Position numbers and translations under genes: made by a program
Assembly: GCA_024398435.1 (NCBI GenBank)
Contig: JAKSJD010000001.1
Span: 248,001 to 312,000, forward strand
DNA length: 64,000 nucleotides
Source: Bacteroidaceae bacterium
GTDB taxonomy: Bacteria > Bacteroidota > Bacteroidia > Bacteroidales > Bacteroidaceae
Direction of reading: 5' to 3'
Notes under the pieces: generated by a model
The model's input: only the letters and a program-made list of their open reading frames with translations
The model's database searches: none
Told to the model about the DNA's origin: nothing
Part shown: positions 25,512-58,793 of the stretch, one piece after another
Position numbering within the stretch: the stretch's first letter is position 1
How the letters are laid out: every line of letters begins with the position of its first letter

Positions 25512-25595
25512 AAATCAGCGACGCAATTTATATAAACGGCGACGTAATTTAAATAAACAGCGACGTAATTTAAATAAACGGCGACGTTAATTTAA
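25512..25595 (+). repeat. Four tandem 21-bp repeats
   Basis: The unit is about AAACGGCGACGTAATTTAAA plus one base, repeated four times at a 21-base period with small changes (CAGCGACGCAATTTAT, CGGCGACGTAATTTAA, CAGCGACGTAATTTAA, CGGCGACGTTAATTTAA). It lies between two convergent terminators, outside any gene. Confidence 0.8.
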
Positions 25596-25660
25596 GAATG
25601 TAACAAGGAATTTCAGGTTTTAAAGCAATCGAAAGCATAAAACGCAACTATTAAACAATA

Positions 25661-33191: not shown

Positions 33192-33222
33192 CCTCCCCTT
33201 GAGGAGAATAAAAGAGGGGGAT
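33192..33222 (+). repeat. GC-rich palindromic repeat, copy A (pta stop)
   Basis: CTCCCCTTGAGGAG followed by AATAAAAGAGGGGG. The distal GGGGG end lies 3 bases from the pta stop codon (33224-33226 on minus). Same plan as copies at 34324, 52968 and 53411, with one mismatch pair in the palindrome. Confidence 0.75.
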
Positions 33223-34228: not shown

Positions 34229-34323
34229 AGTTTTATTTTTTATATTTATAAATTAACTTCATTTATGCGAAGAGTCTCTAACGGATTACGGATTACGGAT
34301 TACCGATAACCGTGAACCATCTT

Positions 34324-34352
34324 TCCCCCTTGGGGGAATAAGAAGGGGGCTA
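34324..34352 (+). repeat. GC-rich palindromic repeat, copy B (proA stop)
   Basis: TCCCCCTTGGGGGA followed by ATAAGAAGGGGGC. The GGGGG end directly touches the proA stop codon (CTA on plus at 34350-34352). Upstream of it (34275-34310) lie three CGGATTA units. Confidence 0.85.
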
Positions 34353-51995: not shown

Positions 51996-53036
51996 TTAGA
52001 ATGCACTTGCCTTCAGGCGAAGACCTGTTGTCTGGTCGAGGCCAAACATAAGATTCATATTCTGAACTGCCTGACCGACTGCACCCTTTAGGAGATTGTC
52101 GATTATGGAAGTTATGACCACCTTATTGTCGAACTTATCCACATGAACGAGACACTTGTTGGTGTTGACTACTTGTTTCAGGTCGAGAGCCTTATCCACA
52201 TAATGTGTGAAAGCCGCATCTTTGTAGAAGTCCTTATAGAGAGCCTCAACGTCAACATCCGAATTATCGAGCTTAACAACCTCTGTGCAGAAGATTCCGC
52301 GGGCAAAGTTGCCACGATATGGAATGAAGTCGATGCTCGATTCGAAACCATCCTGCAACTCCTTGACCGACTGATAAATCTCGTGGAGATGCTGATGTGT
52401 GAACACCTTATAGATGCTGAGGTTGTCGCTTCGCCAACTGTAATGAGTGGTACTTCCTGGTTTCTGACCAGCTCCCGTACTGCCTGTAATGGCATTCACA
52501 GACACATCGTGAGTGAGAAGTCCTGCCTTTGCCAAAGGGAGCAAACCAAGTTGGATGGCTGTGGCAAAGCATCCAGGATTGGCCAAGTGGCGACATTTCT
52601 TGATGGCTTCCAAATGAATTTCGGGAAGACCATAAACGAAATCGTGAGTATCAGCAGCAATGCGGAAGTCCTGAGCCAAATCGATTATCTTCACATTATC
52701 AGGAATCGTATGTTCCTTGAGGAATGCCTCGCTCTTTCCATGGCCGAAGCAGAAGAACACTACATCCACCTTATCGAATGGGAGTTCGCTTGTGAATTCG
52801 AGTTCTGTCTCGCCTACCAACCCTTCATGCACATCATACACCTTATTGCCGGCATTCGATTCCGAATTGGCAAATACTATCTCCACCTCGGGATGGCCGA
52901 GCAAAAGGCGAATAAGTTCGCCTCCCGTGTAACCTGCTGCACCTAGGATTCCGACTTTAATAGGCTCAAGCCCCCCTCGTCTCCCCCCAAGGGGGGATGA
53001 GTTGACTATATTATCAGTTCTATTTTCGTTCATCAA
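51996..53036 (-). CDS. argC: N-acetyl-gamma-glutamyl-phosphate reductase
   Basis: 346 aa. Motifs: 'VGILGAAGYTGGELIRLLLGHPE', 'ANPGCFATAIQLGLLPL' (catalytic Cys) and 'GSTGAGQKPG'. It reduces N-acyl-glutamyl phosphate in arginine synthesis. The conserved part starts at residue about 27 (KVGILG); before it is an atypical N-terminus MMNENRTDNIVNSSPLGGRRGGLEP. There is no other in-frame ATG between, so translation seems to start at 53036 or 53033, inside the end of the DUF559 gene, and run through the palindromic repeat at 52968-52998. The repeat has thus become part of the coding sequence. Confidence 0.93.
   Translation of the reverse strand: MMNENRTDNIVNSSPLGGRRGGLEPIKVGILGAAGYTGGELIRLLLGHPEVEIVFANSESNAGNKVYDVHEGLVGETELEFTSELPFDKVDVVFFCFGHGKSEAFLKEHTIPDNVKIIDLAQDFRIAADTHDFVYGLPEIHLEAIKKCRHLANPGCFATAIQLGLLPLAKAGLLTHDVSVNAITGSTGAGQKPGSTTHYSWRSDNLSIYKVFTHQHLHEIYQSVKELQDGFESSIDFIPYRGNFARGIFCTEVVKLDNSDVDVEALYKDFYKDAAFTHYVDKALDLKQVVNTNKCLVHVDKFDNKVVITSIIDNLLKGAVGQAVQNMNLMFGLDQTTGLRLKASAF
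52968..52998 (-). repeat. GC-rich palindromic repeat, copy C (left end of DUF559 element)
   Basis: Plus strand: AAGCCCCCCTCG then TCTCCCCCCAAGGGGGGAT. It is the inverted counterpart of copy D at 53411-53443 across the DUF559 gene. The palindrome half faces the DUF559 gene. It is read in frame within the argC 5' end. Confidence 0.85.
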
Positions 53037-53403
53037 TTATTACTTTTATTCGTTTCAAAACTTCATTTGTATTGGAAATAACTTCATCATTCGAAAAACG
53101 AATCACAAGGAAACCTTTACTTTGCAACCATCGTGTCCTTATTTCGTCACTATCCTGAACTTCGGGAAAATGATGATACCCTCCATCCAACTCAACAATT
53201 ACCTTAGCAGACAAACATATAAAATCTGCAATGTATTGGCCAATTATGTGTTGTCGACGAAAAGATTGTCCTAAAGCCTTTCTTTTCAAACAATCCCACA
53301 ATATTGCCTCTGCTTCTGTTGGATTCTTTCTCATCCATTTTGCATGCTCTTTGAGCAAATCATAAACAGATGGATCTGCTGTACTATAAGAATAATCATT
53401 CAT
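53020..53403 (-). CDS. DUF559 endonuclease-like protein (VSR/PD-(D/E)XK fold)
   Basis: 127 aa. Typical DUF559 pattern: 'HAKWMRKNPTEAEAILWDCL', 'GQSFRRQHIIGQYIADFICL', 'VIVELDGGYHH', 'RTRWLQSKGFLVIRFSNDEV'. The Asp in ADF and E-x-D in VELDG fit the VSR-like nuclease active site. The end overlaps argC by 17 bases. Both sides carry inverted copies of the CCCCCTTGGGGG repeat (52968-52998 and 53411-53443), so the gene and repeats form a unit of about 475 bases inside the arginine cluster. The role of DUF559 proteins is not established; mobility is my inference. Confidence 0.88.
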   Translation of the reverse strand: MNDYSYSTADPSVYDLLKEHAKWMRKNPTEAEAILWDCLKRKALGQSFRRQHIIGQYIADFICLSAKVIVELDGGYHHFPEVQDSDEIRTRWLQSKGFLVIRFSNDEVISNTNEVLKRIKVIIDERK

Positions 53404-53410
53404 ATAAAAT

Positions 53411-53443
53411 TTCTCCCCCTTGGGGGAGATTAAGAGGGGGCCT
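53411..53443 (+). repeat. GC-rich palindromic repeat, copy D (right end of DUF559 element)
   Basis: TTCTCCCCCTTGGGGGAGA then TTAAGAGGGGGCCT. It lies directly before the pspC stop codon (53444-53446 on minus) and 8 bases from the DUF559 start. The palindrome side faces the DUF559 gene. Confidence 0.87.
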
Positions 53444-53644
53444 CTATGTTAAAGGTTCCTCTGGAACAATGAATGCACAGACGATATAGAAGATGATGCC
53501 TGGAAGACCTGCCATGAACAATGTGACGAGTACGAAGATTAGGCGAACCAATGTTACATCCAAATCGAAGTACTTTGCCATTCCAGAGCATACTCCACAA
53601 ATCATCTTATCGGTCATTGACCTTGTGAATTTCTTTTCTGACAT
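53444..53644 (-). CDS. PspC-domain membrane protein
   Basis: 66 aa. PspC domain: 'KFTRSMTDKMICGVCSGMAKYFDLDVTLVRLIFVL' and one transmembrane helix (FVLVTLFMAGLPGIIFYIVCAFIV), ending PEEPLT. Stand-alone PspC proteins of this size are common in Bacteroidota; they are linked to membrane stress in other phyla. It sits between argG and the DUF559 unit, 43 bases after argG. Confidence 0.9.
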   Translation of the reverse strand: MSEKKFTRSMTDKMICGVCSGMAKYFDLDVTLVRLIFVLVTLFMAGLPGIIFYIVCAFIVPEEPLT

Positions 53645-58432: not shown

Positions 58433-58793
58433 CATAGAAGTGAGAGTGGTCGAAATGCTCCGAACAGTGTTCGACCCCGAAATCCCAGTCAACGTCTACG
58501 ACTTGGGATTAATCTACAAGGTGGAAGTGGAAGAAAAAGCCAACAGCAAACAGCTAACAGCTAACAGCCAACAGCCAACAGCTAACAGCCAACAGCCAAC
58601 CACCTTCAACGTCAATATCGACATGACTCTCACTGCCCCTTCATGCCCAGCAGCCGACTTCATCATCGAAGACATCCGCCAAAAGGTGGAATCAATCGAA
58701 GGAGTTGACGAAGTGGACATCGAACTAGTGTTCGAACCCGAATGGACAAAAGACATGATGAGCGAGGAAGCCCGACTCGACCTCGGCCTCTAA
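58419..58793 (+). CDS. SufT-like metal-sulfur assembly factor (DUF59) with repeat insertion
   Basis: 124 aa. DUF59/MIP18 fold: 'VVEMLRTVFDPEIPVNVYDLGLIY' and the Cys motif 'TLTAPSCPAADFI', ending 'LVFEPEWTKDMMSEEARLDLGL'. It helps Fe-S cluster delivery in the SUF pathway. Between strands, residues about 40-64 are a low-complexity run (SKQLTANSQQPTANSQQP) encoded by tandem ACAGCTAACAGCCA units (58540-58601), absent from ordinary family members. ATG 58419 used; it overlaps radC by 14 bases. Confidence 0.9.
   Translation: MEKFDIEVRVVEMLRTVFDPEIPVNVYDLGLIYKVEVEEKANSKQLTANSQQPTANSQQPTTFNVNIDMTLTAPSCPAADFIIEDIRQKVESIEGVDEVDIELVFEPEWTKDMMSEEARLDLGL
58540..58601 (+). repeat. In-frame tandem repeat in the SufT-like gene
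   Basis: Units of ACAGC(T/C)A repeat about eight times without breaking the reading frame. Similar words (AGCGGTTAGCAGTTAG, reverse sense) occur in intergenic DNA at about 43945-43965. Confidence 0.8.

Follow-up and report, generated by a model that had tools for sequence, protein, structure and literature searches.

Tagged palindromes around DUF559 nuclease genes: a putative kind of minimal mobile element in Bacteroidota and other phyla

Known palindrome-associated nucleases and the DUF559 unit

The closest described relatives of the arrangement reported here are the repetitive extragenic palindromic (REP) sequences with their REP-associated tyrosine transposases (RAYTs), organized as REPtrons, and the REP doublets forming hairpins (REPINs). 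The arrangement was found in a window of 64,000 nucleotides from a Bacteroidaceae bacterium (the whole stretch of DNA analysed), where a DUF559 nuclease gene is enclosed by two inverted, GC-rich palindromes. Both kinds of system have short tagged palindromes, which are dispersed as single copies and inverted pairs and also lie in inverted orientation around a small nuclease gene, and REPtrons share with the DUF559 units the possession of enzyme-specific repeat flavours. They differ in the enzyme, an HUH tyrosine transposase in RAYTs and a DUF559 nuclease here; in the tag, GTAG in their repeats and CCCTCA-CCC- or CCCCCTC-like in ours; and in location, many DUF559 units being placed in frame inside larger open reading frames (ORFs). 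A sequence-only reading of the window had likened the unit to a REP/RAYT pair with a Vsr-like nuclease, and this idea fits, having survived comparisons both of arg clusters (within the genus) and of the flanks of DUF559 genes elsewhere. The repeat-bounded DUF559 unit is, we consider, probably the gene-bearing mobile form of a palindrome family, moved by its own nuclease.

Other described elements resemble the unit in part. CGTC REPs are defined by a CGTC (or TGTC/CCTC) tag, a stem of 8-9 bp starting with A-T pairs and a CCA tail; CCTC is given as a variant tag, and these repeats are reported to 'apparently lack a dedicated transposase' (PMC3733652). CGTC REPs and Rickettsia palindromic elements share with our repeats the tagged palindromes, some of them within genes. 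CCTC is present in the tag here, the stems start with C-G pairs, and stem and tail do not agree with the published description; two CGTC-type patterns are rare in the loci (7/270 and 3/270), and identity with CGTC REPs appears less likely on this count. Vsr-fold homing endonucleases have a nuclease that is homologous by sequence only, and occupied and empty alleles, as seen here for RecG and argC, whereas DUF559 units have palindromic ends and many dispersed gene-less copies. A profile built from 35 DUF559 domains finds 3hrl (E 1.4e-31) and the 'Mobile intron protein' 3r3p (E 3.7e-5), the latter of which we take to be a Vsr-fold homing endonuclease. The window protein belongs to the same domain family as YcjD (PRK09767) and Caulobacter VsrA, DUF559 proteins annotated as of unknown function or as predicted Vsr-like repair enzymes. 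A full-text search gave no paper that connects DUF559 with palindromic repeats; since it did not extend to most subscription journals and preprints, an earlier description may exist.

The unit and the ORF that adjoins it comprise the following features; here and below, the gene names arg, psp, ack, pta, pro, nad and mnm were assigned by reading translations.

53020..53403, minus strand: gene for a 127-aa nuclease of the DUF559 family (PF04480; Pfam E 7e-35), with 3hrl as a solved relative (E 1.3e-20)
52969..52997, plus strand: palindromic repeat copy C, a C-rich tail followed by a hairpin, the hairpin towards the nuclease gene; AGCCCCCCTCGTCTCCCCCCAAGGGGGGA
53412..53443, minus strand: palindromic repeat copy D, inverted relative to copy C and likewise tail-out; read from 53443 down to 53412: AGGCCCCCTCTTAATCTCCCCCAAGGGGGAGA
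53444..53644, minus strand: pspC-like ORF (by sequence reading), across the unit from argC; its frame ends with TAG at 53444-53446

The sequence-only reading had given the coordinates of the gene between its inverted GC-rich repeats correctly, and both of its statements on layout hold: the hairpin lies towards the nuclease gene in both copies, with the C-rich tail outside in each, and the unit adjoins the pspC stop, the first base of copy D directly following the TAG. The tag adjoining the hairpin is CCCCCTC, not GTAG. An inverted match as good as that between the two copies was found within 60 nt on both sides at 0/1031 sliding control positions in the same window, yet with 350-nt flanks at 5/1011, so that the pair is locally significant but unspectacular when considered alone. 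Folded as single-stranded DNA, copy C reaches -7.9 kcal/mol (z -1.87; equalled by 9/200 shuffles) and copy D -6.6 kcal/mol (z -0.20; equalled by 76/200 shuffles, i.e. no better than these); copy D also scores terminator-like on the minus strand.

The window protein has all 15 positions that are invariant over 35 sequences, including E32, D60, E71-x-D73 and H77. Pfam assigned it to DUF559, with MTES_1575 as the only other, sub-cut-off match; no match to Vsr (PF03852) was reported for it at E<=0.001, and Pfam gave no HUH tyrosine transposase (Y1_Tnp) in the unit. Its score against the YcjD equivalog PRK09767 is 86.9 bits, below the NCBIfam cut-off of 218. PADLOC gave no match to the protein, and a defence-system reading was dropped on that account. 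A known RNA family was likewise dropped, since Rfam returned at both window copies only sub-threshold matches to whalefall-1 (17.3 and 16.5 bits; cut-off 37). Further Rfam scans gave only tRNA, SAM and group-II-intron matches at 14 loci (gathering threshold), and only microRNA models, at one locus (L319), among 20 loci at E<=0.5. A second DUF559 gene of the window's genome lies between nadA-like and mnmA-like frames; the two palindromes paired around it are of a different kind and read in frame into both neighbours.

Repeats beside DUF559 genes and throughout genomes

That the gene and the repeats are truly linked is, in our judgement, practically certain. A PF04480 scan gave matches at E<=0.001, many of them weak, in 171/296 Bacteroidota genomes. 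One match per genome was taken from the E-sorted list, strongest first, to give 80 loci, a set that for this reason favours strong matches; the window's own genome and four matches near contig ends were left out, and ten loci cut by contig ends were kept among those fetched, the domain being taken as 318 nt. Inverted repeats across the gene exceeded the 99th percentile of 3634 in-locus controls at 46/80 of these loci, and direct repeats at 41/80. With 500-nt flanks, one type or the other was present at 57/80 DUF559 loci vs 1/29 Vsr genes of the same phylum (Fisher p 5e-11; the short locus L349 omitted from the Vsr comparison). In the window's genus 11/17 loci pass the flank test (19/23 loci were taken, four weak or partial ones being omitted, and L010 and L015 were then dropped at contig ends). 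Loci from public genomes of several phyla (by record title Chloroflexi, Proteobacteria, Nitrospinae, Omnitrophota, Gracilibacteria, Bacteroidetes, a cyanobacterium and others) had repeats of either type in 56/79 cases vs 1.8% of 3910 controls, and inverted repeats alone in 50/79, after L150, at a contig edge, had been dropped. The association with DUF559 genes at large that had been suspected from the window is thereby borne out.

Some flanks contain whole inverted dimers or arrays, which accounts for the direct repeats at some loci. At L077, L079 and L115, long palindrome-pair arrays stand on both sides of DUF559, with direct repeats of 199 to 379 nt. Ten further loci were examined out of 40 plasmid-collection matches: those of Deinococcus, Sphingomonas, N. 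gonorrhoeae and Picosynechococcus were above their own controls, and those of Azospirillum, Methylobacterium, Sinorhizobium, Shinella, Photobacterium and E. coli (ycjD) were not clearly so, their repeats appearing one-sided by eye. In Deinococcus psychrotolerans the DUF559 gene has inverted repeats of 56 nt that differ by one mismatch.

A frequent form of the repeat near DUF559 in the multi-phylum set is CCCTCACCCC-n-CCCTCTCCC-nnn-GGGAGAGGG. The density of a tag-plus-hairpin motif, chosen after these flanks had been seen, is within 400 nt of DUF559 75 times that in the rest of the 80 multi-phylum loci (95 vs 15 copies). The tail points towards the gene in 61 of the 95 nearby copies and the hairpin in 34, so that the tail-out arrangement of the window is the less common one; the hairpin-towards-gene layout of the sequence-only reading is true of the window and not general. 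The tag in 51 copies from many phyla is CCCTCA-CC, these copies having been selected to begin with CCCTCA.

The repeats also differ from one nuclease gene to another. Paralogues were compared in 19 of the genomes with more than one listed DUF559 match (58 genes, one G054 gene with a short flank being omitted): the match between a gene's own two flanks was above the mean cross-match to its paralogues in 46/58 cases (Wilcoxon 2e-8), and vs the best cross-match it was above in 37/58 and below in 19/58 (Wilcoxon 2e-4). Judged from these flank alignments, each nuclease gene within a genome tends to have its own version of the repeat. Over 99 of 160 loci (those with a flank score >=36, full length and no stop), protein identity correlated with repeat similarity (Mantel rho 0.42; 0/500 permutations as high), and across phyla rho was 0.63; shared taxonomy may add to this correlation.

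Copies are not confined to the neighbourhood of the gene. A covariance model, R1, was built from 51 of the 95 nearby copies (32-36 nt, starting with CCCTCA, at most two per locus, Bacteroidota-titled loci excluded) and searched in 32 DUF559 genomes, 21 of which had also supplied sequence to it. At least 5 copies were found in 30/32 genomes and more than 100 in eight, the range extending from 5 to at least about 150; R1 also matched, likewise at 5 or more places, in 9/11 genomes that had supplied no sequence. In G432 and G528 inverted repeat pairs stand at a regular spacing of 47-52 nt. DUF559 matches number 1 to 10 per matching genome in the Bacteroidota scan and 1 to 4 in a set of 187 genomes.

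This set, drawn from the class of a Nitrosomonadales metagenome-assembled genome that itself has gene and repeat, served for a co-occurrence test with the exact motif. The motif is present in 31/42 genomes with a strong DUF559 match, 3/22 with a weak match and 14/123 without match (Fisher p 6e-14, the p values in this genome set being optimistic because the genomes share ancestry); the reversed motif occurs once in the whole set.

The window itself holds two gene-less palindromes, both beside further metabolic genes:

34320..34351, minus strand: solo palindrome with 81% complementarity to copy C; it lies at the stop codon of a proA-like ORF
33192..33220, minus strand: diverged solo palindrome between ackA-like and pta-like ORFs (sequence and ORFs)

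Units within protein-coding genes and empty sites

At 30 of the 80 Bacteroidota loci the DUF559 domain is part of a frame that spans 300 aa or more from stop to stop, at 49 it stands alone, and one is interrupted. Pfam was run on 18 of the 30 fused ORFs and found a further family in 16, L064 and L091 having DUF559 alone; the hosts of the remaining 12 were assigned, where named, from junction sequences. Host families in the scanned ORFs include LeuRS (two sites), MetH, RecG, HsdR, HsdM, type ISP and other restriction-modification enzymes, together with methylmalonyl-CoA mutase, UvrD helicase, a GATase_5 protein, an amidohydrolase and an M23 peptidase. At several junctions the peptide is a translated palindrome, as with SPLPLGEDLGEG in L061. 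In-frame insertion into conserved housekeeping proteins (LeuRS, RecG, MetH) is shared with inteins. Pfam detected no intein/Hint splicing domain in the 18 fused ORFs scanned, introns not having been specifically looked for, and the intein reading was rejected on this result; in contrast to an intein, a DUF559 insert would stay in the protein. A unit could be read through because GC-rich repeats have few stop codons, and readable units could therefore survive within or at the ends of protein genes. The openness of the repeats in six frames averages 4.68, not above the 4.90 of shuffles of the same composition, so the scarcity of stops in them follows from their composition.

RecG offers occupied and empty alleles within one genus: among 41 genomes, an in-frame insert of 144-146 aa is present in 3, RecG is uninterrupted in 37, and one is unusable (the junction was recovered from 29/30 sequences inspected; the matches counted include an in-frame stop somewhere in 2/3 with the insert and 13/37 without). 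The insert is bounded by inverted palindromes, clear in L242 and L243 and degenerate in the third. In a nuclease tree of low resolution, the MetH-, RecG- and LeuRS-embedded copies and 4/5 HsdR-embedded copies cluster by host gene; two of these groups have another host nested in them, and the MetH and HsdR clusters span taxonomic families. In one HsdR pair the nucleases are 78% identical, within hosts that are 51-56% identical, and lie at different positions; in another they are 40% identical and lie in the same region of hosts that are 71-77% identical. From these alignments, the two HsdR comparisons suggest movement between sites.

The site in the window is the start of argC:

51996..53033, minus strand: argC (Pfam semialdehyde dehydrogenase domains and reading; presumed start)

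The native ATG of relatives (ATG ATA AAA GT...) is lost in the window. Upstream, no stop interrupts the argC frame across copy C as far as an ATG at 53031-53033, which lies within the 3' end of the nuclease gene. The likely ArgC product therefore has a repeat-encoded N-terminal extension (...NSSPLGGRRGGLEP-IKVGILG); alternatively, a TTG within the repeat could serve as start. The earlier statement that the repeat provides the argC start needs correction: the frame passes through copy C, and the nearest ATG lies in the nuclease gene, a start at the TTG in the repeat being the alternative.

Seventeen genomes of the genus were compared, and argC was clear in 13 of them. Eight of these lack gene and repeats together (G001, G004, G005, G008, G009, G010, G011 and G012), four have the unit (G000, G003, G014 and G015) and one has a solo repeat (G013), so that gene and repeats come and go at this site; an empty site, which the sequence-only reading had named as a sign of insertion, is found within the genus. 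At six of the eight empty sites the argG stop abuts the argC ATG; in G009 a spacer separates the two genes, and in G001 a pspC-like ORF lies between them, preceded by a C-rich, non-palindromic stretch. In all four genomes with the unit the argC frame is extended through the repeat, and in G003, G014 and G015 the new argC ATG overlaps the nuclease stop (ATGA). G013 has its solo repeat at the argC start and a second one in frame inside ArgC, where it encodes the palindrome-derived TPSKPPRGEAYSHSPSGETERGLGS (L236). Elsewhere in the genus, G004:C39 (L003, L013, L018) and G012:C20 (L004, L012, L020) each carry three consecutive DUF559 matches about 2-2.5 kb apart, one per genome (L003 in G004, L004 in G012) reading in frame into an apparent leuB start (SSPLGGDKRGVSLKIAVL.GDGIGPE).

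A putative mechanism and its rivals

The linkage of gene and repeat, the private flavours, the dispersed copies, the empty sites and the in-frame embedding are features of the genomes themselves, from which we infer a mechanism of recognition, cutting and copying. The palindrome / DUF559 gene / inverted palindrome unit would be the autonomous form of short mobile palindromes, and the solo palindromes and close inverted pairs in the same genomes would be its forms without a gene. What the DUF559 protein recognises is most likely the C-rich tag together with the hairpin of its own flavour; the protein is predicted to cut or nick at the repeat or at an empty target, after which repair would copy the repeat-bounded segment elsewhere. 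A cut at the palindrome would be REP-like and one at the empty target homing-like. Within protein genes or at their ends, units and solo repeats would persist in translated form, as linkers of the PSPLPLGEG type, and the nuclease would be kept as an embedded or translationally coupled domain. Such an element would be REPtron-like or homing-like, with a Vsr-type nuclease replacing RAYT. As to what drives the repeats, we lean towards the nuclease.

The occurrence of these repeats across the DUF559 family in many phyla, as judged from genome sequences, points to a previously undescribed kind of mobile DNA. A broader proposition, to which we give even chances, is that DUF559 nucleases and tagged GC palindromes form bacteria-wide minimal mobile elements, in which one Vsr/homing-type nuclease would act as the 'transposase' of a REP-like repeat, entry into essential genes would be in frame and splicing-free (the ends becoming peptide linkers and the nuclease a domain), and some enzyme-less REP-like repeats would find their origin. 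A nuclease family travelling with its own palindromes in many phyla would be a direct candidate enzyme for such repeats. It would also account for unusual peptides of low complexity (PSPLPLGEG-like) and for nuclease domains embedded in conserved proteins, would show a splicing-free life of selfish DNA inside essential genes, and would assign a testable function to DUF559, a poorly characterised family.

Several observations weigh against the interpretation of the units as elements moved by their own nuclease. The window's pair scores 29, just below the 99th-percentile cut of 30 in the phylum survey, and the second DUF559 gene of the genome fails the formal flank test, as do 23/80 Bacteroidota and 23/79 multi-phylum loci. 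E. coli ycjD is flanked by repeats on one side only. Among embedded units only 19/30 pass the 99th-percentile test; the three RecG units tested fail it, their palindromes being visible by eye only, and inspection by eye gave no clear target-site duplication at the RecG or argC junctions. The genomes compared for co-occurrence are not phylogenetically independent; 11/42 strong-DUF559 genomes lack the tested motif, perhaps using another flavour, and 8/123 genomes without any DUF559 match have it at three or more copies. Inside Bacteroidota the correlation between protein and repeat is weak (rho 0.15).

An unlikely alternative would have another enzyme, such as a RAYT/Y1 transposase, spread the palindromes, with DUF559 genes inserting into them or recombining between them. 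Y1_Tnp is common in the 187-genome set (132/187) and linked to the motif (odds ratio (OR) 3.8, p 0.003), including among genomes with no strong DUF559, where the motif occurs in 16/97 with Y1_Tnp vs 1/48 without (p 0.012). The motif-rich genomes G379 and G380 have no DUF559, and the long repeats of some units are direct and not inverted, as would fit a position within repeat arrays. The DUF559 association is much stronger, however (OR 21): in the 55 genomes free of Y1_Tnp the motif is present in 5/7 with strong DUF559 vs 1/48 without, and among strong-DUF559 genomes Y1_Tnp makes no difference (26/35 with it vs 5/7 without). Since DUF559 predicts repeats in Y1_Tnp-free genomes, Y1/RAYT as sole driver was rejected, some association with Y1_Tnp remaining. 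Against a passenger role also speak the tendency of each nuclease within one genome to have its own repeat flavour, and a window unit without HUH transposase.

Homing without transposition, in which DUF559 would, as a site-specific homing nuclease, copy itself into the empty allele of a host gene, with palindromes mainly as stable linkers or recombination ends and solo repeats as remnants after gene loss, we regard as slightly less likely still. Embedded copies that mostly cluster by host gene and site, across taxonomic families for MetH and HsdR, would suit it, as would the profile match to 3r3p and a solo repeat at argC, a position at which sister species carry the whole unit. Yet related nucleases occur at different sites and in different hosts, and the repeats are hardly all remnants, being far more numerous than DUF559 matches (5 to at least about 150 per genome in 30/32, against 1 to 10 or 1 to 4). 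It is very improbable that DUF559 is ordinary cargo, a host repair function of Vsr type on a horizontally acquired gene surrounded by terminators or chance structure. Caulobacter VsrA (DUF559) is a predicted Vsr-like mismatch-repair nuclease (PMC12907096), and the terminator-like score of copy D, with its folding no better than shuffles, would agree with this. Yet Vsr genes, which encode a similar small nuclease, are flanked by repeats in 1/29 cases only; tag, hairpin and paired layout recur across phyla; and repeats lie within coding frames, where terminators would be senseless. On the Vsr specificity control and the sliding controls, terminators or chance were rejected as the explanation, which is already largely refuted. 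A phage vehicle was rejected too (4 phage records; one query without a confirmed IMG/VR match).

Some minor observations concern E. coli and the window. In E. coli the interval from ycjD to fabI (L278 2834-3133; L281, K-12 ycjD b1289) holds repeats of similar type, and sequence like that adjacent to ycjD is present in 5348/5426 genomes, at a median of 14 places. The E. coli 'box C' repeats were reportedly first noted near fabI, the neighbour of ycjD. Use of ycjD as a mobility test was dropped: the gene is present in 3365/5426 E. coli genomes, and two strains without it show no clean excision: fabI is adjoined there by an RND efflux/TetR cluster. The window also contains tandem direct repeats, of 21 nt at 25513-25596 and of 14 nt at 58535-58604, the latter inside a predicted reading frame.

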